Made by a program: the position numbers and the translations under genes. From positions 1 to 20,532 of the IMG/VR virus record IMGVR_UViG_3300035188_001588: a stretch of DNA of 20,532 nt. One strand, given 5' to 3'. This document shows, piece after piece, positions 2,450-19,636 of this stretch; positions within the stretch are counted from its first letter, which is position 1; each line of letters begins with the position of its first letter. A model generated the notes under the pieces. It was not told the DNA's origin. It made no database searches and saw only the letters and a program-made list of their open reading frames with translations. The DNA comes from a virus.

Positions 2450-3019
2450 TCAGAACGGGATGTCGTCTCCTTTCGACCAATCGAATGGTTCGTCGGTGCG
2501 CACGCCGGTGACGACCGCGCCGGGAAAAACGCGTTTGGCTTCGAGCGCCTCAGGTCCGAGCGCTTCGATCAGCCCCCCGATCTCGGCGAGCGTGAAGGCG
2601 GGAAGGCCTTGCGGGACGGTTTCCGAATGGGCTGCGTCCCGCACGATCGCGATCAGCTCGCCGCTGCCGGGCAGCACAAGCTCCCACACCTCCGCCGCCT
2701 TTGGCTCAGCGCCGGATTCGATTGCGGCGCGTTCGAGCGTTTCCCACGCGCGTTGCATCGCCTCGGTCTGGATCCGGACGAACTGTTCCTCGCCGCTCGC
2801 CACAGCCGCCTCGACGCGCGCCTGCTGCTCGTCGAAGCGCAGGCGCAGCGGATCAGGCGCGAGACGCCGCAACCGACCGACGCCCCAACGCCGCTCCATC
2901 GCGGCGCGGACCCCGGCAAGTCGATCGACCATCGATCGGATAATCACCTCAACCGGCGCCGATGCACTGGCTGCGAGATCGAAACCGGCGTCGCGCCGGC
3001 GCACGGCCCCGCGGCTCAT
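2450..3019 (-). CDS. Phage protein with SSB-like acidic C-terminal tip
   Basis: A 189-aa, mostly helical protein of unknown family. The start at 3019 has GGAG six bases upstream and overlaps the previous stop (ATGA). The middle is rich in Arg, Glu and Ala and contains probable long helices (about residues 55-115). The C-terminus is GDDIPF, essentially the acidic tip by which bacterial SSB recruits DNA-repair and replication partners. I do not see an OB-fold pattern in the rest, so this is not a clear SSB. It may use the tip to recruit the same partner proteins to phage replication forks. It lies between the replication genes and the RuvC-like gene. Confidence 0.6.
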   Translation of the reverse strand: MSRGAVRRRDAGFDLAASASAPVEVIIRSMVDRLAGVRAAMERRWGVGRLRRLAPDPLRLRFDEQQARVEAAVASGEEQFVRIQTEAMQRAWETLERAAIESGAEPKAAEVWELVLPGSGELIAIVRDAAHSETVPQGLPAFTLAEIGGLIEALGPEALEAKRVFPGAVVTGVRTDEPFDWSKGDDIPF

Positions 3020-3471
3020 GACGCGCTCCCCGGGGCCGACGCCGAGCGCGCGACAAAGCGCGGCGAACGGGGCCCCGAAAGGGGGATGCGGCACGGCATG
3101 TGCCACGCCGCATCACCCCCCTTTAGGGGGGTGGTTTTTTGGCACATTGGCACACGCAATCTTTTCAATAACTTACCAAATCGTGTGCCACGCATTTTAC
3201 AAAATCGTGGCACACGCCCGGTTTTCCTTGTGTGCCAGCGTGTGCCACGCGTGGCACACGGTTTCGGCGAGAGCATGCTTTTGGCGTCGTTTTGGCGTCT
3301 ATTTTCGACTTGAACACAAGCGCTACGCGCGTCCGAAACATCCATCGCGCGCCGTGTGCCAATTTGTGTGCCACGAATTTCGTAGATCATCCGCAAAGTC
3401 CCGGTTTTTCTTGTGTGCCACCGTGTGCCAGCGTGTGCCGCGCTGGCACACGGCTCTTGAAACTCATTCAT
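3016..3471 (-). CDS. Unknown ORF carrying the octamer repeats
   Basis: A 151-residue frame whose ATG overlaps the stop of the primase-helicase gene and whose stop overlaps the start of the next gene; both overlaps are ATGA. This argues that the frame is translated. The peptide has two in-frame copies of a Cys/His/Thr/Arg-rich unit (GTRWHTRKTG, about residues 15-24 and 78-87), each followed by a weaker R..RGT..G segment. This peptide repetition simply follows the DNA octamers, so the sequence may be kept for its DNA role rather than for the protein. I recognise no domain. It could be a spacer frame that maintains translational coupling through an origin. Confidence 0.45.
   Translation of the reverse strand: MNEFQEPCASAAHAGTRWHTRKTGTLRMIYEIRGTQIGTRRAMDVSDARSACVQVENRRQNDAKSMLSPKPCATRGTRWHTRKTGRVPRFCKMRGTRFGKLLKRLRVPMCQKTTPLKGGDAAWHMPCRIPLSGPRSPRFVARSASAPGSAS
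3098..3451. repeat. GTGTGCCA octamer array, candidate replication origin
   Basis: By eye there are 11 exact copies of GTGTGCCA. Seven are on the plus strand (3183, 3230, 3240, 3354, 3366, 3413, 3423). Four are inverted, as TGGCACAC (3148, 3208, 3252, 3444). One-base variants sit at 3098, 3140 and 3433. Several neighbours start exactly 10 bp apart (3230/3240 and 3413/3423/3433). Bases 3183-3215 form a near-perfect inverted repeat with AT-rich arms. Two blocks (about 3183-3259 and 3366-3451) look like diverged duplicates, each with CCGGTTTT just before the tandem octamers. Dense phased octamers beside a primase-helicase gene suggest iterons for initiator binding. Lambda has a comparable arrangement, with its iterons inside gene O. 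Confidence 0.7.
3114..3140 (+). terminator. Plus-strand terminator-like hairpin inside the octamer array
   Basis: The stem is CACCCCCC (3114-3121) and GGGGGGTG (3126-3133), with a TTTA loop, followed on the plus strand by G and six T (3135-3140). It has the form of an intrinsic terminator for plus-strand transcription, which is opposite to every gene here. It may block antisense transcription into the early operon or be a structural part of the origin. Confidence 0.45.
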
Positions 3472-5792
3472 GGCGTCGCCTTTCGTGTTGTCGCATCGGC
3501 GCCGATTCCGCCGGTTGCAAGAGGGCGTTCGAAGCGTTTGAGGAAGGATCGTTGCTCGTCGTGTCGCAGCGAGAAGCCTCGCTCGGCGCCCTCCGAGACG
3601 ATGCTTGTCTCCGTCTCGCCGGCTTCAGTGACCGCGCGCCGCAGCGTCGCGCTGGTGCGCTGATGTCCCTTGGCGTCGGTCTGGCGGTAACGGGTGAAGC
3701 GTTTGTCGTCCGACCAGGCGAGAAGTTTCGCCGCAGCGTTGACGCTGATCTCTTCGCCTTTGACGCGGGCGAGAAGACAGGCTGCAATCGTTTTCATCAA
3801 CTGATCGTCGGCGCCATCTTCATCGACATCGATCGCTTCGAGTTGCACCGGCTCCAGCACGCCGACCTGATCGCCATTGGCGAGATCGACGCCGATCTTT
3901 TTGAACCAGAGCGCGTCGGGGCTAACGAGACCAAGATTGGCCTTGGCGTCGTCGAGCCGCAGATAGAGATGTCGTTCCTTGGGCGCCACGCCATACCAGT
4001 CCGCATCCCGCTCGCTCATACCAAATAGCGTCTGTACAACGCGTGCGACGCCAACCAGCGCGCTCGCGCCTCGCGCCGCGTTCATGTTGCCGGCATACCC
4101 ATCGCTCGCGCTCTGTGGCGGTTTGGCGGTGTGGTGGACGAGAAGAACAGCGCAATGGGTCGCCCGTGCGATCTCGCGATACATGGCGGCGACGACTTTG
4201 ATCTGCTCGTTGGAGTTTTCGTTCACCTCGTGAGTTTCGACGAAAGGGTCGACGATAAAGACGCCGATCTCGCTTTCCCGGATTTTCTCGATACATGCAT
4301 CGACATCGGGCAGACGGATAACCATGCCGCTTTTATCGGCGCGGGCGAGAAGCAGCGGCCGATCGGCGCCGGAGTTGAGCGCGATCCTGTTTCTAATTTC
4401 CGCGAACGGGATGGCGTGATGCTGAATTACGGCCCCAAGTCGGCGCTTCAGCTCATCGGAGTCGTCTTCGGTGTTGTAGACCCACGCCTTCACCTGTTCA
4501 TGAACAGGCTCGCCTGTAATGTCGCGACCGGTAGCGAGCGCAACGGCGCGGGCGACGCCGTGTGTGGATTTGCCGACACCCGCAGGCGCAACAAGCAGCG
4601 TCAAATGACCGCGTAAAAGTGCGCGGCCCAGCAGCCAGCGCCGGCGCGGCAGCATGGCGATGTTGAGACTGTCGAGAAAGGTTGGCGTGAGCGGCGTCAT
4701 AGTCTGCGCTGGCGCCGATGCATGATCGATCACAATCACCGGATTGGGCGCATTCCATTTGGCGCGCCCGCCAGCGATCATGACGGCGACTTCGCGCCGG
4801 GTCTGCGCAGCGGTATAGCCCGGCAGTGTCATCGCCTCGGCGGCGGCGGCGATTTCCGTATCGCTCCAGCCGCGCGAGACCCAATGGCCGACAAGCCGCA
4901 GCATATTATCGTGCCAATGGTCGCCCGAGCGAATGCGCGCCATGCAAGCGTCGACCGAGACGCCATTGGTCCCGATGTGGAGGTCGCTGCCAACGGCGGC
5001 CTGTACTGGCGCCGCTACGGTAACATTATCCTGGCTGGACGCGGCAGACGGCGTTGGGTTTGTAGCAGGCGCGGCAGCCACACGGGAACGCGGCGACGCC
5101 AGTTCCGGTTGTGCGAGGGGAAAAGCCTCGGCAATTCTTCCCGGGCTGTAAGAATTGGGTCCGCCGGCGTTGTTTTCGTAAAACTCCGTCAGTTCAAGCA
5201 CGCGCCCCTTCTTGCGCGGCCACGCAATCGATCCGCCAAGCCGCATGACGCGCCCCGGATTGACCACCATGACGTCGCCGCCAAGCGCCAACGCCAGCGC
5301 GCTGTTCTGTGTCCGGCACAGATTCGGATCGGTGACAGGATGATCGAGTCGCCACAGAATCTGCGCGCGGGGATGGGGCGTCAGACCTGTGAAGATGACG
5401 GCGGTCGGCGCGCAGCAGCGGGCGCGATATTTCTCCGCCGCCTCAAGCACGACATCATCGTCGATATCGACATAGAAGGCGGTGAGTGCGTAAAAATCCT
5501 TGTCGCTTCCCCGACCGAAGGGCGCGGTGTTGGGATGACGCAACGCCTGACCGATATAGACATTCTGGCCCTCCTTGCTGTTTTCGACGACGGCGCGCTC
5601 GAGAAGCTTGTCGAGGGTAGCGACGGTGAAGATTTCGGCATGGCTCAGACGACCGTCGTAACCGTCGGTCCACGCCAGTTCTACCTTGGCGTCATCATAG
5701 GCGATGTCGAGCCCACCGAAGAGATGCTGAAGGTGCCGGCGCATCGCATCAATATTCGGCTGTAGAATGGGCGCAACAGTCGTCGTTTCCAT
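3468..5792 (-). CDS. Phage primase-helicase (prim-pol-like N-terminus, RepA/AAA_25 helicase)
   Basis: A 774-aa two-domain replication protein. The N-terminal half has FYVDIDDD (Asp109, Asp111) and a downstream PRAQILWRLDHP, the pattern of RepB/prim-pol-like primases that make RNA or DNA primers. A Pro/Ala-rich linker (about 225-265) leads to a helical region. A RecA-like ATPase of the RepA/AAA_25 type follows: Walker A APAGVGKST (402-410), Walker B VFIVDPF (Asp515) and VLLVHHTAKP near 550, as in hexameric replicative helicases. The C-terminal tail (about 690-774) may be a winged helix. It is expected to unwind and prime phage DNA. Its stop overlaps the repeat-bearing ORF, placing the candidate origin right behind it. 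The start at 5792 has only a weak ribosome site. Confidence 0.85.
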   Translation of the reverse strand: METTTVAPILQPNIDAMRRHLQHLFGGLDIAYDDAKVELAWTDGYDGRLSHAEIFTVATLDKLLERAVVENSKEGQNVYIGQALRHPNTAPFGRGSDKDFYALTAFYVDIDDDVVLEAAEKYRARCCAPTAVIFTGLTPHPRAQILWRLDHPVTDPNLCRTQNSALALALGGDVMVVNPGRVMRLGGSIAWPRKKGRVLELTEFYENNAGGPNSYSPGRIAEAFPLAQPELASPRSRVAAAPATNPTPSAASSQDNVTVAAPVQAAVGSDLHIGTNGVSVDACMARIRSGDHWHDNMLRLVGHWVSRGWSDTEIAAAAEAMTLPGYTAAQTRREVAVMIAGGRAKWNAPNPVIVIDHASAPAQTMTPLTPTFLDSLNIAMLPRRRWLLGRALLRGHLTLLVAPAGVGKSTHGVARAVALATGRDITGEPVHEQVKAWVYNTEDDSDELKRRLGAVIQHHAIPFAEIRNRIALNSGADRPLLLARADKSGMVIRLPDVDACIEKIRESEIGVFIVDPFVETHEVNENSNEQIKVVAAMYREIARATHCAVLLVHHTAKPPQSASDGYAGNMNAARGASALVGVARVVQTLFGMSERDADWYGVAPKERHLYLRLDDAKANLGLVSPDALWFKKIGVDLANGDQVGVLEPVQLEAIDVDEDGADDQLMKTIAACLLARVKGEEISVNAAAKLLAWSDDKRFTRYRQTDAKGHQRTSATLRRAVTEAGETETSIVSEGAERGFSLRHDEQRSFLKRFERPLATGGIGADATTRKATP

Positions 5793-7318: not shown

Positions 7319-7657
7319 TCAGCCGACAAGGACGGACAAGCGTTTCGCGCAGCCGAGGGCGTGCAGATCCTGCGATGTGCGTATAGCGAGATAGACGTAA
7401 TCGCTTTCGGAAATGCGGCGTTGGACGAGCCGCACCTGTCCGTTCGCTTCAGCGGCAAGCGCTCGCCTTGCGATCGTGATCAGGCGCCGGCGCTTCTCTG
7501 GAGTGTGAACCTTTGTGCATTCGCAGCGGTCATACGCAAGGTTGCCACGATAATAGGCGGCGCCAGTCCCTGCCTGCGCATCAATCAGCCAGTCAACGAA
7601 TCCATTTTCGTCGAGCGGGATCTCACGGTGGTCGATGGTAATTTCAATGAGCCTCAT
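7319..7657 (-). CDS. Small phage protein of unknown function
   Basis: A 112-aa protein that I do not recognise. The ATG at 7657 is preceded by GGGAGAGG at good spacing. It has an alternating hydrophobic start (RLIEITID), an acidic NGFVDWLIDAQAGTG segment (about 18-32), a small Cys pair (CECT, about 45-48), and a basic helix (PEKRRRLITIARRALAAEA). It ends with VYLAIRTSQDLHALGCAK. No signal peptide or membrane segment is visible. It sits 11 bases ahead of the nuclease gene and probably shares its transcript. The fold may be a small alpha/beta protein. Confidence 0.65.
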   Translation of the reverse strand: MRLIEITIDHREIPLDENGFVDWLIDAQAGTGAAYYRGNLAYDRCECTKVHTPEKRRRLITIARRALAAEANGQVRLVQRRISESDYVYLAIRTSQDLHALGCAKRLSVLVG

Positions 7658-7800
7658 CTCGAAAAGCCTCTCCCATTCGCCCGACGCTATGATCGGTCGT
7701 CAATTTCCAGCGATGTCTGCAAGATCAGCGAAGGAGCCTTGGGGCTTCTCTGCTGCCTATTGAGAAGGTAGCGATCGAGGCCCCGGATTTTCCCAGGAGG
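7658..7800. other. 143-bp spacer within the early operon
   Basis: No frame here looks coding. It contains a weak hairpin (CTTCTC at 7745-7750 with GAGAAG at 7762-7767) without a T-run, and the ribosome site of the 112-aa gene at its left end. A promoter recognised by the upstream sigma-like protein could lie here, but I see no consensus that supports one. Confidence 0.3.
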
Positions 7801-8391
7801 TCACAGGCCGGCGATCATTCTCCGCGGCGCCAGGCCAAGCATCACGAGGCGGTAACGTAATTCTCTGAGCCGCCGGTAGAATTCGCTGGTGGAAAGGCCG
7901 AGCGCACGCTGGGCTTCCGCCAGTTCGCCCTCTGCCTCGAGCGCCGCTTCAAGGATAATTTGAAGCTCCGGCGGTAATTTTTTAGTGGCCCGCGAAATAG
8001 TCAATCGATAAAGGAAATCGATTTCCGAGGGGTTCGATAAATCTTCTATGCCTTCAAGGAGCGTCAGCCCTTGCTCGTCTTCAGTCTCGTCAAGCGATTC
8101 AAAAGTCCGCTTTTCCTGGGAGAGTCGGTCTGCAACCCCCTGCGCCGCCTGGGCGGCAATTCTCAAAACAAAGGGAGTCCACGGTCCGCGCGCCGGATCG
8201 AAATAATGTCGGCGTTCAAGGAGCGTGATCAGGATGTCCTGTTCAATATCTCTAATGAAATCATTATCGAAACCGAGTTTTCGGACGATCCGCCGCGCCT
8301 GATAATTTGCGGCGACAAACATGATGTGCAGCTCGCGCCCGCCAATCGGGAGATCATGAAATTCTTCTTCATCAAATTGAAGCTGCAACAT
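7801..8391 (-). CDS. Phage sigma-70-like RNA polymerase sigma factor
   Basis: A 196-aa protein with sigma-70 layout. A region 2-like helix set spans about residues 25-95: FIRDIEQDILITLLERRHYF, followed by DPARGPWTPFVLRIA, matching the usual FDP.RG....WV..IA motif. An acidic linker (DETEDEQGLTLLEGIED) follows. A region 4-like helix-turn-helix spans about 138-183 (LPPELQIILEAAL, then ALGLSTSEFYRRLRELRYRL). The start at 8391 has GGGAG upstream. It would redirect host RNA polymerase to phage promoters or act as a sigma-like regulator. It is the third gene of the operon, directly after the ImmA/XRE pair, so it may be the output of lysogeny control. A non-sigma DNA-binding role remains possible. 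Confidence 0.7.
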   Translation of the reverse strand: MLQLQFDEEEFHDLPIGGRELHIMFVAANYQARRIVRKLGFDNDFIRDIEQDILITLLERRHYFDPARGPWTPFVLRIAAQAAQGVADRLSQEKRTFESLDETEDEQGLTLLEGIEDLSNPSEIDFLYRLTISRATKKLPPELQIILEAALEAEGELAEAQRALGLSTSEFYRRLRELRYRLVMLGLAPRRMIAGL

Positions 8392-8497
8392 CTCGATCTC
8401 CCGTCACGCAATTACTTTCAAAAGACAAAACCCGCCCGTTCACGGAATCGCTTCCGCGTTCGGTTATCTCAGGCGCGTTTGTTTGAGGCTTGTTGGC

Positions 8498-8779
8498 CTA
8501 CGCGGCGGAACGCGTCCGGAATTCCCGGTAGACTGAAACGGTGAGCTCGAGGTTTTCCTTCATATCAGGCGGCAAACGTTCCGCCTCGATGAAGGCCCTG
8601 TCCGTCGGAAGCCCCAGTTGCTCGCACGCCGCAATGATCAGATAATCGCGGGGTGCGTTTTCCAGCCCTCTCTCGATCCGTGACCAGTAGGCTGTGGAGA
8701 TATTGATGCGGCGAGCGAATTCTTTCAGCGCCACGCCAGCCTTCTCTCTTTCCTCACGGATCCAGCTTCCAAAAGCCAT
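8498..8779 (-). CDS. XRE-family HTH transcriptional regulator (phage repressor-like)
   Basis: A 93-aa DNA-binding protein. The helix-turn-helix spans about residues 15-40 (VALKEFARRINISTAYWSRI), of the XRE/Cro-CI type. The frame is open much further upstream, but the start at 8779 is chosen because AAAGGA lies just before it, because the XRE domain begins there, and because the upstream gene ends 19 bases away. It pairs with the ImmA-like peptidase encoded immediately upstream. In ICEBs1 and many temperate phages, ImmA cleaves the XRE repressor ImmR to trigger induction. By analogy this is the lysogeny repressor. It lacks its own oligomerisation domain beyond a short C-terminal helix. Confidence 0.85.
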   Translation of the reverse strand: MAFGSWIREEREKAGVALKEFARRINISTAYWSRIERGLENAPRDYLIIAACEQLGLPTDRAFIEAERLPPDMKENLELTVSVYREFRTRSAA

Positions 8780-8798
8780 GGCTTCGATCCTTTCTGGT

Positions 8799-9554
8799 TT
8801 ACTTTGATTGGGCGGAGCGGGTGAGGCCGGTGCGCAGCAAGTCGTAGCGATCAAGCCGAACACGCATAAAACTCTCCGAGACGCCGTAGCGCTCGGCGAG
8901 TGAAAAGACGACATCCTGCGCGGCGTCCGGATCCTGCATCGCGCCGTCATAGGCGGCGGCGCCGCGGATGACGGCGGAAGGCCGTTCCGAATGCTGCAGG
9001 CGATAGCGTCTCGCACAGCGCTGGAAATCGACGCGCACAAGCGCCGGCGGCGCCAGCAGTCCGCCCATAAACTCATTGGCGCGAACTTCCCGAGGATCGA
9101 ATTTCTTCGCCATGGCGCTTTCCGTGACCAGAAACGCCGGCGTCGGCTCGGGGGCCAGCGTGATCCAGCGCGGCGCGTCGAAAACCACATGTCCAAGTTC
9201 ATGCGCAATTGTTGAGCGCAGGAGGTAGCCAAAATCGGAAAGCCTTGGACCATTGATCGCGACCAGAACGCAATCCGGCGCGTTCCGGTCATATTCGGTG
9301 ACGCCCATCACCGGCCTGCCGGCCCGGTTCAACACCTCATGCTCCAGATCCCACGAAACGTCGAAAGCGACGCCGTTCACATTCATCTCGCCGAGGCGCT
9401 CCTCGACCCCGGACAGGTCTAGCGTCCGGCTGAGCGAATCGGACTGCAGTTGAGCCCGGACATCGCGCGCAACCGCCCATATTTCCTGATGATTCAGCTG
9501 TTCCGGCTCACTGGTGAACCGTGAATGGCGGTAGCTGACAATGACTTCCGGCAT
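8799..9554 (-). CDS. ImmA/IrrE-family metallopeptidase
   Basis: A 251-aa predicted zinc peptidase. Visible zinc site: AHELGH (His118, Glu119, His122) with the third ligand in ANEFMGGLLAP (Glu161), the ImmA/IrrE signature. A C-terminal YGVSESFMRVRLDRYDLL segment (about 224-241) is the usual end helix of the family. The start at 9554 has GCAGGAAG directly upstream. It is cytoplasmic, with no signal peptide. It is expected to cleave a partner repressor, here the XRE protein encoded 19 bases downstream, on SOS or quorum-type induction. The order ImmA before XRE is the reverse of ICEBs1 immR-immA. Confidence 0.88.
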   Translation of the reverse strand: MPEVIVSYRHSRFTSEPEQLNHQEIWAVARDVRAQLQSDSLSRTLDLSGVEERLGEMNVNGVAFDVSWDLEHEVLNRAGRPVMGVTEYDRNAPDCVLVAINGPRLSDFGYLLRSTIAHELGHVVFDAPRWITLAPEPTPAFLVTESAMAKKFDPREVRANEFMGGLLAPPALVRVDFQRCARRYRLQHSERPSAVIRGAAAYDGAMQDPDAAQDVVFSLAERYGVSESFMRVRLDRYDLLRTGLTRSAQSK

Positions 9555-9696: not shown

Positions 9697-9891
9697 ATGA
9701 ACCCGCTTCATCCCGATCGCATGAGCGCCGACGAGCGCTGCACCGAAATCGTTCAGATCCTCGCCCGTGGTCTGGTTCGTCTGAAGACAAAGCAGTCAAC
9801 TCAAATATCTGCGGACCGCAGAGAAACTTCTCTCGCAATTCAGTCCAACCAGAGCCGTCATGCGATCCGTAACTCACGGAGAAAGCGATGA
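9697..9891 (+). CDS. Small protein of the DUF2924/recombinase cassette
   Basis: A 64-aa basic protein. The conserved-looking part is MSADERCTEIVQILARGLVR (residues 9-28), followed by a polar Gln/Ser/Arg-rich tail. From memory, short proteins of this pattern (ADER..E...ILA.GL.RL) regularly precede DUF2924 genes in alphaproteobacterial recombinase cassettes; their function is unknown. The stop overlaps the DUF2924 start by 4 bp (ATGA). The ATG at 9697 has a poor ribosome site, and the ATG at 9721 is an alternative. Confidence 0.65.
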   Translation: MNPLHPDRMSADERCTEIVQILARGLVRLKTKQSTQISADRRETSLAIQSNQSRHAIRNSRRKR

Positions 9892-10334
9892 CAGATATCG
9901 TCCTGGCGCGCATTGCGGCATTGAAGACCATGCCCGCGCCGCAACTGAAAAATCAGTGGCGCGAATTATTCGAGACGGAGCCGCCGCCCTACAATCGACG
10001 GTTCCTCGAAAGCCGCCTCGCCTACCGTATCCAGGAATTGGCCTATGGCGGCCTCAAACCGGAAACCGTGAAGCGTCTCGAAGCCCTCGGCGAACAACTC
10101 GACGGCGGGCGTATCGACGTTCGGAAGCGCAAAGCGGACGAGCGACCAGTTTCCGGGACGCGACTAATTCGTGAGTTTCAGGGGATCGAGCACTGCGTGA
10201 CAGTGCGTGACAATGATTACGAATATCAGGGCCGCCCCTACAAATCCCTCTCCGCCATCGCACGCGCCATCACCGGCACTAGGTGGAATGGCTGGAAATT
10301 CTTCGGTCTCAAAAACTATCGGGGGCGAGCATGA
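9888..10334 (+). CDS. DUF2924 protein, recombinase partner
   Basis: A 148-aa protein matching DUF2924. It has an N-terminal helical part with LARIAALKTMPAPQLKNQWR and LESRLAYRIQELAYGG. A C-terminal compact part follows with GTRLIREFQGIEHCVTV, then YEYQGRPYKSLSAIARAITG and TRWNGWKFFGL. The last motifs look like the small DNA-binding-type fold found in these proteins. The family is almost always encoded next to a large serine recombinase, and it is probably an accessory DNA-binding factor for integration or excision; this role is inferred. Both ends are ATGA overlaps with neighbours, indicating coupled translation. Confidence 0.88.
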   Translation: MTDIVLARIAALKTMPAPQLKNQWRELFETEPPPYNRRFLESRLAYRIQELAYGGLKPETVKRLEALGEQLDGGRIDVRKRKADERPVSGTRLIREFQGIEHCVTVRDNDYEYQGRPYKSLSAIARAITGTRWNGWKFFGLKNYRGRA

Positions 10335-11662
10335 AACAGCCCTCAGGATCGAAGACAATAAATCGTAAGTTGCGCTGCGCCGTATATACACGCAAGTCGA
10401 GTGAAGAAGGGCTCGACATGGAATTCAATTCGCTTGATGCACAGCGTGAGGCCTGTAGCGCCTATATCGCCAGCCAGCGCTCCGAGGGTTGGGTTGAGCT
10501 GGCGGAGCATTACGACGACGGCGGCGTCTCTGGCGGCACCCTTGACCGACCATCACTGAAGCGGCTTCTTGCCGACATCGAAAATGGTCGCGTCGACGTT
10601 GTGGTCGTCTATAAGATCGATCGACTCAGCCGCGCTTTGATGGATTTTGCCAAACTGGTCGAGGTCTTCGACCGGCGCAATGTTACCTTCGTCAGTGTGA
10701 CGCAGTCGTTCAATACCACGACCTCGATGGGCAGGCTGACGTTGAACATCTTGTTGTCCTTCGCGCAATTCGAGCGCGAGGTCATCGGCGAGCGGATTCG
10801 CGACAAATTCGCGGCCTCGCGCCGGAAAGGCATGTGGATGGGCGGCTATGTGCCGCTCGGCTACCGGGTCGAAAACCGCAAACTCGTCATTGAAGATTCG
10901 GAGGCGACGACCGTACGTATGATTTTTGAGCGCTTCTGCACGGTGGGCTCCGCGACGGCTCTTGTGCGTACGTTGTCAGCCGAGGGTGTCCGCACGCGCG
11001 GTGGGCGACTCGTCGACAAGGGCTTCGTCTACAAGTTGCTGAATAACCGCGTCTACATTGGCGACGCGGTTCACAAGGGAACCGCCTATCCTGGCGAGCA
11101 CCAGCCGATCATCAGCCGAGCGCTTTGGGACAAGGTCCGCTCGATCCTCTCTGAGAGCCCGCGTTTGCGGGCCGGCCGCACGCGGGCGGCGACGCCGGCA
11201 CTGCTCAAGGGCCTGCTGTTCGGCCCCACCGGCTGCGCCATGACGCCAACCCACACCCGCAAGGGTGATAAGCTCTACCGCTACTATGTCAGCCAGTCGG
11301 TCATGAAACAGGGCGCCGACGGCGACCCCGTCAGCCGTGCGCCGGCGGCCGAGGTGGAGGCCGCGGTGATCGATCAGATTCGCGGCTTCCTGCGCACCCA
11401 CGAGGTCGTAGTGGCCACATGGCGGGCCGCGCGCCCCGAGATCGAGGGGCTTGCAGAGGCGGAGGTTCGCGAGGCGCTGCACCGGCTCGACCCGCTGTGG
11501 GAAGAACTGTTCCCCGCCGAGCAGGCACGAATCATCCAATTGTTGGTCGAGCGGGTCGATGTCGGCCCGCAGGGACTGAAGATCCGGCTCCGGGTCAACG
11601 GCCTGTCCAGCATCGTCCATGACCTCGCCGGGATCGGCGCGGAGAAGCGGGGGGCGGCGTGA
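10331..11662 (+). CDS. Large serine recombinase (resolvase-type integrase)
   Basis: A 443-aa site-specific recombinase that cuts and rejoins attachment sites through a phosphoserine link. The catalytic resolvase domain shows AVYTRKSSEEG (nucleophile Ser23), SLDAQR, YDDGGVSGGT and YKIDRLSRALMDF (Asp97, Arg98, Arg101). A recombinase domain follows (GYVPLGYRVENRKLVIED, about 173-190, then DKGFVYKLLNNRVYIGDAVH). A ribbon segment LLKGLLFGPTGCAMTP (about 293-308) has fewer Cys than the classical zinc ribbon, and the C-terminal helices are short. The start at 10331 overlaps the DUF2924 stop (ATGA); the frame is open back to 10283. It is likely the integrase of this element, so an attachment site would be expected nearby. 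Confidence 0.9.
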   Translation: MKQPSGSKTINRKLRCAVYTRKSSEEGLDMEFNSLDAQREACSAYIASQRSEGWVELAEHYDDGGVSGGTLDRPSLKRLLADIENGRVDVVVVYKIDRLSRALMDFAKLVEVFDRRNVTFVSVTQSFNTTTSMGRLTLNILLSFAQFEREVIGERIRDKFAASRRKGMWMGGYVPLGYRVENRKLVIEDSEATTVRMIFERFCTVGSATALVRTLSAEGVRTRGGRLVDKGFVYKLLNNRVYIGDAVHKGTAYPGEHQPIISRALWDKVRSILSESPRLRAGRTRAATPALLKGLLFGPTGCAMTPTHTRKGDKLYRYYVSQSVMKQGADGDPVSRAPAAEVEAAVIDQIRGFLRTHEVVVATWRAARPEIEGLAEAEVREALHRLDPLWEELFPAEQARIIQLLVERVDVGPQGLKIRLRVNGLSSIVHDLAGIGAEKRGAA

Positions 11663-12093: not shown

Positions 12094-12162
12094 GGATTGT
12101 GCCAGGACCCCTCGGGTCTATTCTGCGGTCCGATATCTGTCCATCGAATCGCGATCCGCTCC

Positions 12163-15100
12163 ATGTCCTCACCGAAAGATATTGCCGAAATACTTTACTC
12201 CATTCTCCCGGAGGATGGATCAGTCATCGGCAATGCTTCCGCGTTGACGCAAGTGCGCGCGCAGATACCGGACCTGTCAGACGAAGATTATGCGGCGGCG
12301 CGGGATGCGCTGGTCGCGTCAGGCCGTGGCGTCAAGGGCCGGGGGCGGGGCGGATCGATTGCGCGGTTGGTCAATGACGATGTCGAAGACGGAGATTCGA
12401 CCGACGACGATGATGACGCCGATGAGGATGGAGACAACGACCAATTCGCGCTGGAGTCCGAGGACGAGCCAGAAGCGCGGCCGCGGAAGGCGGCCAAGGG
12501 CAAGCGCAAGTCGTCTCGTTCGAATGGACCGGTGCAGGTCGTGAGCTATCGCCACCTCGACAAGCGCACGAACAACCCGGAAGTCGGGATGGTTCATCCC
12601 GAGAACGATCCCGATCAGCCCAAAACAACCTACGCCTATGATCCGCACATCGACCCTGCGCTGATGTTCGACACCGCGCGTTCGCGGATCGAAAAGGTCA
12701 TCGACGATGCCTTGATCTCCGGCGACGTGTACACAATGAAGGAGGCGCTGCTCGAATTGAAGCGGATGCAGGCGCCTTACCTCAATTGGGCGGGCAAAGC
12801 CGAGCGGACCTCATTCGAGATCGACACCGTGTCGCTGCATGTGCATGAGCGCGTGGACCCGGCGACCATTCTGGCCAATGCGCGCAAGCGGCTAAAGGGC
12901 GAAAAGGCGGGAGAGGTCTGGCGGCAGGCGGATCTATTCGCGGCGCCCTTCGAGAACCTGCCGCTTCGCCAGGCTGTCGACTTCTACCGGCATGAGAAGG
13001 GCTGGTCCAACCGGCTGATCGCGGGCGACAGTCTGCTGGTCATGAACTCGCTGCTGCAGAAGGAGTCGATGGCCGGCAAGGTGCAGATGATCTACATCGA
13101 CCCGCCCTACGGCATCAAATACGGGTCTAACTTCCAGCCGTTCACGAACAAGCGCGACGTCAAGGACGGCGCGGATGACGACCTGACCCAAGAACCCGAG
13201 ATGATCAAGGCTTTCCGGGACACCTGGGAACTTGGTATCCATTCCTATCTGACCTACCTGCGAGATCGTTTGCTACTCGCGAAAGAGCTACTGCACGATA
13301 GCGGCTCTGTGTTCGTGCAGATCGGTGATGAGAACCTGCATACTGTCCGATCTATTCTCGATGAAATTTTTAGACCTGAGAATTTTATATCTTTAATTTC
13401 CATGAAAAAGACCGGGGGTCAAAGCAGCAAAACGGTTGCAGGCATCTGCGACTATCTGATTTGGTATTCGAAAGAAAAATCAAGGGTGAAGTATAATCCT
13501 CTATACCTATTGAAAAAACCCGGGGAAGTCGGCGCTACCCAGTACACGTGGGCAGAACTTCCATCTGGTGAACGACGCACACTCTCATCGGCTGAAATGG
13601 AAAGCGGAGATATTGGGCGAGTGTTTCAGCCATATCCGTTGGTTTCTATGGGTGCGGCATCAAAGGATGAGAGTTTCGAATGGCGCGGCGAGACTTTTGT
13701 GCCGTCGCCCGGTCGACATTGGTCTATCGCGACCGGAATGGAACGCCTCGACAAAGCGGACAGGTTGTTGGCGCTCGGAAAAACTCTCAGGAACGTCAAT
13801 TATCTGGAGGACTATCCTGTCGCTCCAATCACAAACCTCTGGACCGATACGCAAACTAGCGGGTTCGCTGGGGATCGTTTCTACGTTGTTCAGACACTTC
13901 CTGCCGCATTGGAGCGCTGCCTCCTTATGTCCACCGATCCGGGTGATCTGGTGCTCGACCCAACCTGCGGTTCGGGAACCACGGCGTTCGTCGCGGAGAA
14001 GTGGGGCCGGCGCTGGATCACTTGTGACACGTCTCGCGTGGCGGTAACGCTCGCCAAGCAGCGGCTGATGACAGCGAGTTTCGATTATTACCGCCTGCGC
14101 TATCCACACGAGGGACTGAAGGGCGGCTTCGTTTATCAGACGGTGCCGCACATCATGCTGCAGTCGATCGCCAACAATCCCGATATCGACACGATCTACG
14201 AAGCGAAGCATTCCGCCATCGCCTCCGCCTTGGCAACGCTCAACGCAACACTGAAAGGACAGAAGCTTCGCCATCGCTCGCCCCAGGGCGGGCGCAAGGG
14301 CGAGTGGATCGACTTCTCTGCGGCCGGCAAGACGCACAAACTCGCCAATGGCGAAGCTGCGCCCGCCGACGCGCTGCTCGAATGGGAAGTGCCATTCGAT
14401 TGGCCGGAAGAATGGCCTCAAGCCGCAGCCGAGCCCTTCAAGGCCTTCCACGCTGCGCGGCGGGCGATGCAGGCGGCGATGGATGCTTCGATTGAAGCCC
14501 ATGCCGAACCGGAGACACTCTACGACAAGCCGGAAAAGGACGAGACGCGCCTGCGCATCACAGGGCCTTTCTCGGTGGAAGCTGTCCCTGCGCCGACCGT
14601 GCTCAGCCTCGATGACTCGACGCCGCCGGTCGAGGCCGATGCCTCCGCTGCGCGCTCCGGCGAGACATCCCGGCAGGCGCTTTGGCGCGGCGAACTCCTG
14701 AAGACCGGCATCCGCGGCAAGGGCGGCGCGATGCTCAAGTTCACGGAGCTTGAAGCGATACCCGGCTGCAGGCATCTCCATGCGTCCGGCTCGCTGGAGA
14801 CCGGCGAGCGTGCGGTGGTCAGCTTCGGCCCGGAACATGCGGCTCTCGAACAAAAGCGGGTGGAGCGCGCCATCGAAGAGGCGCAGACGCTGGTCCCGCG
14901 CCCGAAGATTGTCGTGTTCTGCGCCTTCACCTTTGATCCGGAGGCCGCCAAGGATATCGACGAGATGAACTGGCCCGGCGCCACGCTGCTCAAAGCGCAG
15001 ATGAACACCGACCTCCTGACCGAGGACCTGAAGAAGGCGCGTTCATCCAACCAGAGCTTCTGGCTCATGGGCCAACCGGATGTCGATCTGCGGCGCGAGG

Positions 15101-15441
15101 GCGACGAATGGCGCGTCGAGGTCAACGGTTTCGACTATTTCGATCCTCGTTCCGGTGAGCTTGTCTCGGGTGGCAAATCGAAGATCGCCATGTGGTCGCT
15201 CGATACCGACTACGATGGCCGCAGCCTGATGCCGCATCAGGTGTTCTTCCCTATGGCTGGCGCGAAGGATGGCTGGAACCGCCTGCGCAAGACCATCCAG
15301 GCTGAGCTTGACGAGGATCTGCTGGAGCAATTCCACGGCACGGTGTCACTGCCGTTTAAGGCGGGCGAGAACCGGCGCGTCGCCGTCAAGATCGTCGATG
15401 ATCGAGGGATCGAAAGCCTGAAGATCATGGGCCTGGAGTGA
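12163..15441 (+). CDS. Type III-like restriction-modification DNA methyltransferase (Mod)
   Basis: A 1092-aa adenine-type methyltransferase, longer than classical Mod (about 650). The order is DPPY (313-316, in YIDPPYGIKYGSNF) before DPTCGSG (599-605), i.e. the beta class of type III enzymes. The 280 residues between them should hold the target-recognition domain. Residues 1-66 resemble a winged helix (IAEILYSILPEDG, then YAAARDALVASGRG). A strongly acidic linker follows (about 70-105), then a Lys/Arg-rich patch. The C-terminal 450 residues contain VVFCAFTFDPEA and are typical of the long Mod proteins that pair with a helicase-type Res. The frame is open from a TTG at 12097; the ATG at 12163 is chosen because the domain begins there, although the ribosome site is weak. 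It methylates host DNA and guides the restriction subunit. Confidence 0.9.
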   Translation: MSSPKDIAEILYSILPEDGSVIGNASALTQVRAQIPDLSDEDYAAARDALVASGRGVKGRGRGGSIARLVNDDVEDGDSTDDDDDADEDGDNDQFALESEDEPEARPRKAAKGKRKSSRSNGPVQVVSYRHLDKRTNNPEVGMVHPENDPDQPKTTYAYDPHIDPALMFDTARSRIEKVIDDALISGDVYTMKEALLELKRMQAPYLNWAGKAERTSFEIDTVSLHVHERVDPATILANARKRLKGEKAGEVWRQADLFAAPFENLPLRQAVDFYRHEKGWSNRLIAGDSLLVMNSLLQKESMAGKVQMIYIDPPYGIKYGSNFQPFTNKRDVKDGADDDLTQEPEMIKAFRDTWELGIHSYLTYLRDRLLLAKELLHDSGSVFVQIGDENLHTVRSILDEIFRPENFISLISMKKTGGQSSKTVAGICDYLIWYSKEKSRVKYNPLYLLKKPGEVGATQYTWAELPSGERRTLSSAEMESGDIGRVFQPYPLVSMGAASKDESFEWRGETFVPSPGRHWSIATGMERLDKADRLLALGKTLRNVNYLEDYPVAPITNLWTDTQTSGFAGDRFYVVQTLPAALERCLLMSTDPGDLVLDPTCGSGTTAFVAEKWGRRWITCDTSRVAVTLAKQRLMTASFDYYRLRYPHEGLKGGFVYQTVPHIMLQSIANNPDIDTIYEAKHSAIASALATLNATLKGQKLRHRSPQGGRKGEWIDFSAAGKTHKLANGEAAPADALLEWEVPFDWPEEWPQAAAEPFKAFHAARRAMQAAMDASIEAHAEPETLYDKPEKDETRLRITGPFSVEAVPAPTVLSLDDSTPPVEADASAARSGETSRQALWRGELLKTGIRGKGGAMLKFTELEAIPGCRHLHASGSLETGERAVVSFGPEHAALEQKRVERAIEEAQTLVPRPKIVVFCAFTFDPEAAKDIDEMNWPGATLLKAQMNTDLLTEDLKKARSSNQSFWLMGQPDVDLRREGDEWRVEVNGFDYFDPRSGELVSGGKSKIAMWSLDTDYDGRSLMPHQVFFPMAGAKDGWNRLRKTIQAELDEDLLEQFHGTVSLPFKAGENRRVAVKIVDDRGIESLKIMGLE

Positions 15442-15446
15442 GGGGC

Positions 15447-18251
15447 ATGGAGAAGCCGAAGTCCCTTATCATCAACTCGCCCTTTGTCGCCCCACACCAG
15501 CACTGGATCGAGGGCAAGGGTGGCGTGCTCGAGGTCAAGCCGGAGCGCAGACCCGCGAGCTACGAGGTGTTCGACGCCCGCAACAACACGCGGCGCGTCG
15601 AAATGCTCGACCTCGTGAACACGATACGTTCGCGCGTCGACGCCTGGCGTGATGCCGGCTGGCCGGGCGTCACCATAGTGACGCGGCGCCTGCTGGAGCA
15701 CTGGCATGACGAGACGGCGCGCGAGTATCCGTTCTACTTTTGCCAGCTCGAAGCGATCGAGACGCTGATCTGGTGGGTCGAGGGCGCTCCGGAGTTCAAG
15801 CAGGGCATCGTGGTTCCGGGCGACGGCGGCCCTTGGGAACGTCTCTGCAACAAGATGGCGACCGGTGCAGGCAAGACCACAGTGATGGCGATGATCATCA
15901 CCTGGCAGACCCTGAATGCGCTGACCTATCCCAAGCGCAGCAAGGATTTCAGCCGGGCGGTTTTCATCGTTGCTCCGGGATTGACCGTGAAGGGACGCCT
16001 TCAGGTTCTGATCCCGAGCGAGGGGAGCTACTACGATCAGTTCAATCTCTGCCCTTCCGAGGCCTTTCGCCAGAAGCTGAACCAAGCGGAGATTCTGATC
16101 GAGAACTGGCATACGCTGATGCCAGCAGCGCAGCCAAAGCGTTCAGTAGTTAAAAAAGGCGCTGAATCTGACGAGGCGTTCACACGTCGTGTTCTTGGGA
16201 AATTAGCGGGCCACCGGGACATCATCGTCCTTAACGACGAAGCGCACCATGCTTACCGCAAGCCCGCAGAACTGAAGATCAGCAAGAAGGCAGCGGCAGA
16301 CCAAGGGATCGATCTCGAGGAGGCGACCCGATGGATAGAGGGGCTCGATCGTCTGCACAAAACCCGCCGCATCCAGCGGTGCTTCGATCTCTCGGCGACA
16401 CCATTTGCGCCAACCGGAAAGGCGAGTACCGACACGGCGCTGTTCGACTGGATCATTTCCGACTTTGGATTGAATGACGCGATCGAAAGCGGTCTTGTGA
16501 AGACCCCACGCGTCGTCGTGCGCGATGACGCTCTACCCGATGCGAAGACGCTGCGCTCCAAACTTTATCACATCTACCGCGATCCTTCGGTTTCCGAGGA
16601 TCTCAATCGCAAGGCTGAGCCACACGAACCTCTGCCAAAGCTCGTGCAGGATGCCTACACATTGCTCGGTGCTGATTGGCGCAAGGCACTGAGTGATTGG
16701 GCAGCGCATCATTCACCGCCGGTGATGCTGACCGTTTGTAACCGAACCGAGGCCGCAGCGCGTATCGAGTACTATTTCAACGGTGGTGACGCTCACTGGC
16801 CGGAATTGCATGCCCCGGAGAGGACGTTACGTGTGGACTCAAAAGTCCTAGAAAAGGCGGAGCTTGGCGAGCAAGCGACGTCCGATAAAGGCTATGAGGA
16901 GCGCCTGAAGGCGATTGTGGATGCAGCCAACATCCCCGCCACCCGGAAAGAACGCCTTAAAGAGCTGAAGAAGGAAGAACTGCTCCGCGAAATCGTCGAC
17001 AATGTCGGCAAGCGGAACGGCGCCGGCCAGGATCTGCAAAACGTCATCTCGGTTGCGATGTTATCGGAGGGCTGGGATGCCAAGAACGTCACCCATATAA
17101 TGGGCTTGCGAGCGTTCACCTCGCAGCTCCTTTGCGAACAAGTGATCGGTCGCGGCCTGCGCCGTGTGACATACGACAAGGACGAGAGCGGTCTCTTTCG
17201 ACCTGAGTATGTGAACGTCTTCGGCGTGCCACTGTCGATCTACGAGCCTGCGGAAGGTGGTGAAGCCCCGCCTCCTCCAAAGCCCTCCACGCAGATTGAT
17301 GTCGTCCCTGAGCGTGCCGCCCTGGAGTTGCGATGGCCGAACATCCTGCGGATCGAGCAGGTGGTGAAGCCCGTTCTTGCAGTCGACTGGTCGAAGGTCG
17401 AGCCTTTGACGCTTGATCCGACGGCGACTGTAATTACAGCGGAACTGGCTCCAGCATTAGGTGGCGCGACGGATATGAGCAAGGTCACTGAAATCGACCT
17501 TGCGGCCTTGCCTGAAGGATTCCGCCTGCAACGGCTCATCTTTGTTGCGGCACGTAAGGCATTCTCTTCCCTGCGTGGCAGATTTCATGGTGCCGAGGAA
17601 TACCTGCTCGCTCAGCTGGTACGGTTGGTCGAAGCATTCGTCAATTCGAAGAGGATTGATATCCCCTCGCTATTCCATAGCGATCCGTTACGGCGTCGGA
17701 TCCTGATTGCCCTCAGTATCGATGGGGTGGTTCGGCATCTTTTGAACTTTGTGACCGAGCAGAATACGACCAAACTTGAGCCCGTGTTTGACGAGGAACG
17801 TCCCATAGGTTCGACTGCTGATATGAGAGTTTGGTACACCACTAAGCCGAACTTCGTGGCGCAAAAGTCCCATATCAGTCATGTGGTGGGAGATTCGGCA
17901 TGGGAGGGACACGCGGCGAACGTTTTTGAAACGCGTTCGGAAGTGATTGCCTACGCCAAAAATGACCACCTCGGCTTTCACATCAATTATTTATGGCAGG
18001 GATCAAGGCGACGCTATGTGCCGGATTTCATTGTTAGACTACAAAATGGCTTGACGCTTGCTCTCGAAATCAAGGGAGAAGACTCGCCGCAAAACAAGGC
18101 AAAGCGCGACGCGCTCGCAGAGTGGGTAGAGGCAGTGAACGCGCACGGCGGCTTCGGAGCATGGGTTTCCGACGTCGCATTCACGCCCGCGGAGGTGGTC
18201 GATATTGTCCTTAGGCATGCGCGTAACGGCACCGTAACGAAACCCGCGTAG
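15447..18251 (+). CDS. Type III-like restriction endonuclease/helicase subunit (Res)
   Basis: A 934-aa ATP-dependent restriction subunit. Helicase motifs are ATGAGKT (138-144), DEAHH (264-268), SATPF (316-320), a GWDAKNVTHIMGLRAF segment, and QVIGRGLRR (565-573). A C-terminal PD-(D/E)XK nuclease follows: PDFIV (Asp860), then LALEIKG (Glu874, Lys876). It pairs with the Mod upstream and should cut unmodified incoming DNA. From memory it is closest to the group labelled BPTD_3080-family restriction endonucleases. The ATG at 15447 has GGAG at 8-base spacing; a GTG at 15438 overlapping the Mod stop is the alternative. All key residues are present, so it looks active. Confidence 0.9.
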   Translation: MEKPKSLIINSPFVAPHQHWIEGKGGVLEVKPERRPASYEVFDARNNTRRVEMLDLVNTIRSRVDAWRDAGWPGVTIVTRRLLEHWHDETAREYPFYFCQLEAIETLIWWVEGAPEFKQGIVVPGDGGPWERLCNKMATGAGKTTVMAMIITWQTLNALTYPKRSKDFSRAVFIVAPGLTVKGRLQVLIPSEGSYYDQFNLCPSEAFRQKLNQAEILIENWHTLMPAAQPKRSVVKKGAESDEAFTRRVLGKLAGHRDIIVLNDEAHHAYRKPAELKISKKAAADQGIDLEEATRWIEGLDRLHKTRRIQRCFDLSATPFAPTGKASTDTALFDWIISDFGLNDAIESGLVKTPRVVVRDDALPDAKTLRSKLYHIYRDPSVSEDLNRKAEPHEPLPKLVQDAYTLLGADWRKALSDWAAHHSPPVMLTVCNRTEAAARIEYYFNGGDAHWPELHAPERTLRVDSKVLEKAELGEQATSDKGYEERLKAIVDAANIPATRKERLKELKKEELLREIVDNVGKRNGAGQDLQNVISVAMLSEGWDAKNVTHIMGLRAFTSQLLCEQVIGRGLRRVTYDKDESGLFRPEYVNVFGVPLSIYEPAEGGEAPPPPKPSTQIDVVPERAALELRWPNILRIEQVVKPVLAVDWSKVEPLTLDPTATVITAELAPALGGATDMSKVTEIDLAALPEGFRLQRLIFVAARKAFSSLRGRFHGAEEYLLAQLVRLVEAFVNSKRIDIPSLFHSDPLRRRILIALSIDGVVRHLLNFVTEQNTTKLEPVFDEERPIGSTADMRVWYTTKPNFVAQKSHISHVVGDSAWEGHAANVFETRSEVIAYAKNDHLGFHINYLWQGSRRRYVPDFIVRLQNGLTLALEIKGEDSPQNKAKRDALAEWVEAVNAHGGFGAWVSDVAFTPAEVVDIVLRHARNGTVTKPA

Positions 18252-18391: not shown

Positions 18392-19636
18392 ATGCCCATT
18401 TCAGTGTCCGGCATCCTTGACGTGCTCGAAGCTTACGACATCCAACCATTGAACGACGAACGAGAAGATGTCGATCAGCCGGGGGTTGGACAGGTTGAAG
18501 AAGGAGAGACGATTTATTCGACTTCGATTCGTGAGGTTTTTGGGGAGGAGGGCAAAGAAGTTCTCGTAGCCGTCGATGAGGATACATTGCGGCCTTGGGA
18601 GATCTACGGCTCCGATGATCCACGTCTGCGCGAATGGTGGGGAGAAATCGAGCGGATTATTGATGATCCGAACAGCTCTCGACGGAGAGCGCTGGAAGGC
18701 GGTCGGGAAGCGCCCGAGCCGCATTGCGCGTGGTATTGCCCGATTCATTTCTTCGGGCATGGATGGGGGATCTATATCCGGGAGGCCTGCATTCTCTCCC
18801 TCGCGGTCGATATTGCCGCTCTGGTCCACTGGCCATCCGTCCGGGCTCCAAGGCGGGACATTGCTCGGCAACTGCTCCGAAGCTCGTTCTATATGCTCTT
18901 TCTGCACGAGCAATTCCATCACAAGGTCGAAAGCTTGGGTTTTCGGTTGCTGATTTCAACTAGCAGTGATCGATATAGGCCATACAAGGCAAACGTCTAT
19001 CGCCGAAGCTACTTGACCATTGACTGCCTAGAAGAAAGTCTCGCAAACGCGGAAAGCTTCCGTCGCCTTAGTGAGCCTCGCTACACTAGGCGCGTAGACC
19101 ATGCTATTCTTTCCGGTCTACGAGAATACCTTCAGATCTCAATGCGAATGCAACCGCCGGGTTACGCCGAGGGCGTTCACTACCTTGGCAAGGCAGCCTT
19201 CAGAGACGGCCTGTTCAGTCTGCAATCGCAGGTTCTCGACGGTGCGATGCCAGCAACTACATCAGCAGCGCATTGGTCTGTTGCTCCAAATATGATTACG
19301 GCACTGACCGATATCACCGACAATATTTATGTTGTCCTTCCACGCGGCGCGCGGCCAATCTTTCGGCCCACGTCTATCGATCCTGGCGTAACCATTTCAA
19401 GTCGGGCATTGGAAACTGCCCTAACGAAGCATCATGGCTATCGACCCGTCCCCGGCGGAAAAGGGTCGCATGTGAAGTTGGCGAAGCCAGGCGCGCCGAC
19501 CGTAATCATTCCCGGGAACCGCCCCGTCCTTTCGCCCGGCGTCGTGAAGCACGCGCTCGAAGCGATTGGCGGCTATCCGATATCGAGGCTTCCAGATCTT
19601 GTTGACGGCAGACTACCCATTGGTGGCCGAGTATGA
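18392..19636 (+). CDS. HExxH metallopeptidase-like protein with C-terminal HicA-like domain
   Basis: A 414-aa protein with two apparent parts. The first about 330 residues contain LFLHEQFHHKVES, with HExxH ligands His172, Glu173 and His176, and a downstream helix LEESLANAE (Glu214/215) that could give the third zinc ligand. This is the arrangement of gluzincin-like peptidases. The last about 65 residues (roughly 334-400) match the HicA pattern: a helix (ALETALTKHHGY), a strand, GKGSHVKL with His360, PTVIIPGNR, and a final helix (SPGVVKHALEAIGG). HicA is an mRNA-cleaving toxin with a dsRNA-binding-like fold, and the GSH histidine is its catalytic residue. No signal peptide is visible. Domain assignments are by eye. 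It follows a restriction-modification pair, so a defence or suicide role is plausible. No HicB antitoxin is seen. Confidence 0.7.
   Translation: MPISVSGILDVLEAYDIQPLNDEREDVDQPGVGQVEEGETIYSTSIREVFGEEGKEVLVAVDEDTLRPWEIYGSDDPRLREWWGEIERIIDDPNSSRRRALEGGREAPEPHCAWYCPIHFFGHGWGIYIREACILSLAVDIAALVHWPSVRAPRRDIARQLLRSSFYMLFLHEQFHHKVESLGFRLLISTSSDRYRPYKANVYRRSYLTIDCLEESLANAESFRRLSEPRYTRRVDHAILSGLREYLQISMRMQPPGYAEGVHYLGKAAFRDGLFSLQSQVLDGAMPATTSAAHWSVAPNMITALTDITDNIYVVLPRGARPIFRPTSIDPGVTISSRALETALTKHHGYRPVPGGKGSHVKLAKPGAPTVIIPGNRPVLSPGVVKHALEAIGGYPISRLPDLVDGRLPIGGRV

Follow-up and report, generated by a model that had tools for sequence, protein, structure and literature searches.

The array of short repeats found directly 3′ of a primase-helicase gene in a virus genome fragment of 20,532 bp (here, the window) is most probably a phage replication origin, and the product of this immediately upstream gene would bind the iterons through its C-terminal domain. 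The suggestion in the initial annotation that the repeats form an initiator-binding origin is supported by the conserved position of the array, by its co-variation with one domain of the putative initiator, and by two exchanges of domain and array as a cassette. The features of the window are listed in Table 1.

TABLE 1 Features of the array, the adjoining operon, and the rest of the window
Feature	Coordinates	Strand	Description
189-aa gene	2450–3019	−	Next gene in operon; homologue 3′ of array in 47 loci
151-codon open frame	3016–3471	−	Runs through array; ATGA overlaps at both ends
Iteron array	3098–3451	both	11 exact GTGTGCCA and 3 one-mismatch copies
Origin core (candidate)	3098–3155		Iterons 3148−, 3140− on one side of C-box; opposed iteron 3098+ on the other
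C-box	3116–3131	not applicable	CCCCCCTTTAGGGGGG
IHF-like site	3163–3175	+	TTTCAATAACTTA; one mismatch to WATCAANNNNTTR
Array block 1, central part	3183–3259		Sites 3183+, 3208−, 3230+, 3240+, 3252−
Array block 2	3354–3451		Sites 3354+, 3366+, 3413+, 3423+, 3433+ (near copy), 3444−; diverged copy of block 1, +183 bp
774-aa putative initiator	3468–5792	−	AEP-like primase N-terminus, RecA-fold (AAA_25/RSF1010 RepA-like) helicase, C-terminal DNA-binding-like domain
C-terminal domain, proposed iteron reader	3507–3824	−	aa 657–762
Predicted recognition helix	3615–3650	−	aa 715–726, AF2 model
Sigma-70 region 2-like protein	7801–8391	−	Phage early region; borderline Pfam match
DUF2924 protein	9888–10334		Upstream of serine recombinase
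Large serine recombinase	10283–11662	+	Resolvase, Recombinase, and Zn ribbon
Type III restriction-modification pair	12097–18251	+	Mod (N6_N4_Mtase; PADLOC MTase_III E = 4e-170) and Res-like helicase (ResIII)
414-aa protein	18392–19636	+	HicA-like C-terminal domain, aa 340–393, just above Pfam cutoff

Organization of the repeat array

Exact matches to the octamer GTGTGCCA number 11, with 7 on the plus strand and 4 on the minus strand, and are confined to 304 bp (3148 to 3451); zero copies were found elsewhere in the 20.5-kb record, within which uniqueness was checked, and dinucleotide shuffles of the whole window contained 0.4 copies on average and 2 at most. Three one-mismatch copies also belong to the array, namely, ATGTGCCA at 3098(+) and 3140(−) and GTGTGCCG at 3433(+), so that all 14 sites originally reported, on both strands and within about 350 bp, were recovered. 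The array is placed between the stop codon of the 774-aa gene and the ATG of the 189-aa gene. Neighboring iterons are spaced, start to start, by exactly 10 bp in three cases (3230 to 3240, 3413 to 3423, and 3423 to 3433), in agreement with the proposed phasing by one helical turn, and spacings of 8, 11, and 12 bp occur as well. The two diverged blocks that had been described are real: segments of the array recur at an offset of 183 bp with 86 to 87% identity. The “AT-rich inverted arms,” by comparison, proved to be octamer copies in opposite orientations with AT-rich edges, together with an IHF-like site. A search of the array region against 50,697 phages with blastn returned no match. An alternative reading of TGGCAC as a sigma-54-like element was abandoned, since this sequence varies between relatives while the position stays. 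At some distance from the array, the type III restriction-modification pair adjoins the serine recombinase.

Conserved position and variable sequence of the array among relatives

Relatives of the locus were gathered from viral contigs, bacterial genomes, plasmids, and named phages; two doubtful relatives (L090 and L091) were excluded from the nonredundant set and from the statistics. Several of the loci are fragments, control windows were taken from the same contigs, and the 92 nonredundant loci share descent, so that tests on them are only partly independent. The same array position was sought in these relatives, and the 400 bp 3′ of the helicase stop codon had the highest maximum 8-mer count in 78 of the 92 loci when ties are included (strictly, in 65). 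The position is thus shared, and the repeat itself differs from lineage to lineage: the 69 arrays that have at least 4 exact copies fall into 26 clusters, that is, at least 26 motif families, with examples including GTGTGCCA, GTGTTTCA, GTGTTTCG, GTGTGGAC, TTACGGAAG, GGCGGAAGT, GGCGGAGAC, and AAGGTGACGC. No clear array was found in the first 400 to 450 bp 3′ of the helicase gene in five loci (L097, L099, L108, L112, and L188).

Other elements recur across these otherwise dissimilar arrays. The pattern CCCC-N2-6-CCCC/GGGG, here denoted the C-box, is present in 55 of the 92 arrays, compared with 4.3 in control windows, and the exact IHF consensus is present in 14 (0.7 in control windows). Where a C-box is flanked by iterons on both sides, the nearest ones are oppositely oriented in 31 of 35 cases. 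The idea that the C-box generally forms a hairpin was rejected because many relatives have CCCCC-N-CCCCC, which is not a palindrome; our guess is that it serves as a priming or opening site.

The same module was also identified on a circular 31.5-kb plasmid of Methylobacterium, pVL1_6 (7592 to 9200), that carries a phage tail gene, ParA, toprim, and AAA_25 genes, and the array, with no other annotated replication initiator; this element is likely a phage-plasmid replicon. Conversely, a module-bearing plasmid in Microvirga lotononidis carries repBC as well, which counts against the origin reading.

A tandem-octamer scan of viral contigs produced 49 matches, only a few of which are dense arrays. 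One contig (L040, 12500 to 13200) contains a large GTGTGCCA array, the locus having 24 exact copies in all, and the gene that it follows encodes an unrelated primase-helicase; this is an apparent convergence with the window on the same octamer. In two others (L066, 4090 to 4400, and L069, 6120 to 6480), GTGTGCCA arrays consist of two oppositely oriented halves flanking an AT-rich center; no primase-helicase was recognized nearby, and terminase-like genes lie downstream.

The array varies together with the C-terminal domain of the primase-helicase

Among 82 loci, similarity between arrays correlates with similarity between C-terminal domains when the ATPase is controlled for (partial Mantel, 0.43; 0/999 permutations) but not with similarity between ATPases when the C-terminal domain is controlled for (−0.08). 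These sequence comparisons show an array that belongs to this gene pair and whose sequence varies with the C-terminal domain alone.

Two pairs of close relatives document the same relationship on a finer scale. Identity between the window and L001 is 82 to 100% along most of the helicase gene, as far as about position 3840 and apart from a few 60-bp blocks of lower identity (e.g., near 5000 and 3990), and 87 to 100% along the 189-aa gene. Between 3838 and 3061, the stretch that comprises the C-terminal domain and the array, identity is 0.70 or lower, and the octamer GTGTGCCA of the window gives way to GTGTTTCA in L001. A second exchange distinguishes L176 from L182, which are 32 to 66% identical within about −300 to +290 of the stop codon and mostly 84 to 98% identical outside these limits. 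As judged from the alignments, domain and array were swapped as one cassette in both of these natural exchanges. Co-variation and cassette exchange imply probable recognition of the iterons by the cognate initiator, and the 774-aa protein is likely to be the iteron binder, through its C-terminal domain. The 189-aa protein was ruled out as the specificity determinant because, although the array was replaced, its gene and the L001 counterpart are 87 to 100% identical.

Proteins with the C-terminal domain type of the window (type W) are associated with iterons that consist of GTGT followed by four variable bases (GCCA, TTCA, TTCG, GGAC, GCCC, GCGG, or TCAA). In a small sample of 18 sequences, the columns that track the iteron bases best include aa 714 to 717, located where the predicted recognition helix begins, as well as aa 667 and 704; aa 667, which lies outside the predicted helix, tracks them about as strongly as aa 717.

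The pairing of domain and array argues for recognition but leaves its purpose unspecified, and the array sits within a co-directional operon, so that it might instead be an operator through which the C-terminal domain or another regulator controls transcription of the replication operon, with replication starting elsewhere. We consider this unlikely: operators normally precede the gene, whereas this array follows the helicase gene; an operator would need fewer elements than the 14 sites, opposed iterons, C-box, and IHF-like site present here; and the precedents in SaPI, SCCmec, and PLE elements, discussed below, are origins or origin-like sites. Still less probable is a role of the array in partition (as a centromere) or in packaging (as a pac site), with a different phage protein as the binder, for instance, the terminase or the 189-aa protein. 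Phased repeats do occur at centromeres too, and a 189-aa gene accompanies many arrays, but this gene is nearly unchanged where the array was replaced, the arrays follow the helicase C-terminal domain, and the ParA gene of pVL1_6 is located ∼12 kb from the array.

Domain composition of the putative initiator

In the 774-aa protein, AAA_25 matches aa 377 to 558 (E = 1e-33) with 117 bits against a curated cutoff of 27, which places the protein in the RSF1010 RepA (AAA_25) family, and the family profile matches the hexameric helicase RSF1010 RepA (PDB 1g8y; E = 1.4e-16). With this RecA fold, it is not an initiator helicase of the SaPI-type AAA+/D5 class. The N-terminal match to RepB_primase does not reach the Pfam cutoff in the window protein (12.9 versus 24.3 bits); a weak match was also seen in 11 of 12 relatives, the best with E = 0.0012. 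For the C-terminal domain, a search with profiles against the PDB and searches of Pfam and PHROGs found nothing significant. The AF2 model of its 106-residue core (pLDDT, 89; pTM, 0.79) is an alpha/beta fold with a winged-HTH-like order of elements, and Foldseek returned no significant match for two AF2 models of the domain (none at E ≤ 0.001), so that the predicted label of a winged helix rests on the order of the elements.

An open frame maintained through the array

The array is embedded in a 151-codon ORF whose start and stop had been noted to overlap the neighboring genes. Both overlaps are present: the ATG overlaps the helicase stop codon as ATGA (3471 to 3468), and the TGA overlaps the start of the next gene in the same way (3019 to 3016). 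Of 44 loci with a homologue of the 189-aa protein, 32 have a frame that crosses the array without a stop, compared with 15.4 expected from shuffles. In the 28 loci in which the next gene starts at ATGA, the frame that ends at the overlap contains 15 stops in 2,584 codons, versus 134 stops in 5,203 codons in the other two frames (Fisher P = 5e-11; the loci are not fully independent), and, for most of these frames, a start codon is found no more than about 11 nt from the helicase stop. Loci in which the next gene does not start at ATGA show no such bias.

Given that the frame stays open across relatives and is joined to its neighbors at both ends, the ORF could be regarded as the real feature, that is, a gene for a repetitive protein of which the DNA repeats are by-products. 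Several observations make this the least probable of the alternatives. Differences between the window and L002 are spread roughly evenly over the codon positions of the frame (23/35/25), with no excess at the third position, compared with 48/38/70 in a control gene, and the alignment of the two frames is partly out of frame; furthermore, the octamers lie on both strands, and the peptides share no sequence between most lineages. A conserved protein was accordingly rejected on the codon-position comparison. The opposite interpretation, a spurious ORF, was rejected as well because the frame test across relatives showed that openness itself is selected. The most likely explanation, consistent with these sequence patterns, is that selection acts on ribosome passage and translational coupling, not on the peptide. 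Hence, of the claim that the DNA signal is accommodated within a translated stretch, the open frame is supported throughout the family, and the peptide bears no sign of selection. Two relatives (L019 and L089) share a recognizable small protein, with the tail SPRQLGTNPR.LRAAR, which lies between the array and the 189-aa homologue and forms the end of the frame.

In phage lambda, the iterons of ori lie inside an open reading frame, gene O, and this parallel had been drawn for the window. The likeness extends to iterons within an open reading frame and fails beyond that: the array begins after the helicase stop codon, directly behind the initiator gene and not inside it, so that the open frame here is distinct from the initiator gene and encodes a peptide that lacks conservation.

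Comparison with known replicons and a proposed mechanism

Repeats that closely follow the genes for SaPI Rep and SCCmec Cch2 are bound by the C-terminal domains of these helicases (PMC7581432). These systems resemble the window in combining a helicase that has a C-terminal DNA-binding domain (putative here) with short iterons directly downstream; the array is found directly 3′ of the helicase gene in the window and, counting ties, in 78 of 92 relatives. They differ in their D5/AAA+ type helicases and, in Cch2, a separate primase pair, whereas in the window a RecA-fold AAA_25 helicase with an AEP-like N-terminus is accompanied by a core built around a C-box and by an open frame that traverses the array. 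In PLE satellites, the origin varies along with the DNA-binding domain of RepA; the two are swapped together and must match for replication to occur (PMC8263062). This Vibrio cholerae replicon (RepA_N domain and ori) is likewise a co-varying modular pair, as demonstrated experimentally there and comparatively here, but its DNA-binding domain is N-terminal, RepA is not described as a primase-helicase, and its ori consists of three ∼30-bp iterons in a noncoding region.

The archaeal plasmid pRN1 requires an element just 3′ of the gene for its primase-helicase, ORF904 (PMC4234260). ORF904 is an AEP primase-helicase with a C-terminal winged helix (only predicted in the case of the window), but the element 3′ of its gene is a 100-nt stem-loop instead of iterons, and the helicase belongs to SF3. 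The same domain order is found in AEP fusions with a RepA-type helicase and a C-terminal WH domain (PrimQH and related families). Kazlauskas et al. suggested that the C-terminal WH domains of AEP primase fusions recognize origins (PMC5862659); in the present family, this suggestion is backed by natural co-variation and cassette exchange. The best reading of these comparisons is that the window element would work like the SaPI and PLE replicons with a different engine, an RSF1010-RepA-like helicase.

Under this scheme, several copies of the 774-aa protein would bind the octamers via the predicted recognition helix, host IHF would bend the DNA at the array, and the iterons that face each other across the C-box would position two helicase-primase assemblies. 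The DNA would then open at the core, where the RecA-fold helicase may load itself, and the primase domain would begin synthesis. The open frame would let ribosomes run from the helicase gene through the array to the next gene, keeping the transcript and translational coupling intact with the peptide unselected.

We found no publication on this phage system in the literature searched, which largely excludes subscription journals. With about even confidence, the loci can be viewed more broadly as a large phage family in which exchangeable origin-specificity cassettes (reader domain and iterons) stand behind a fixed primase-helicase engine, the many natural pairs form a readable protein-DNA recognition code, and the conserved core of opposed iterons around a C-box is located where translatability is preserved solely to let ribosomes pass. 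An uncharacterized class of phage replication genes would thereby become a testable series of dozens of initiators, each with a predicted origin and near-isogenic pairs included. Such a series would permit tests of how initiators switch specificity and would make it possible to ask whether origins diversify against cross-replication or against origin-targeting nucleases, as proposed for PLEs. It would also provide a rule for locating candidate origins in metagenomic phages, namely, to search directly behind the AAA_25 gene.
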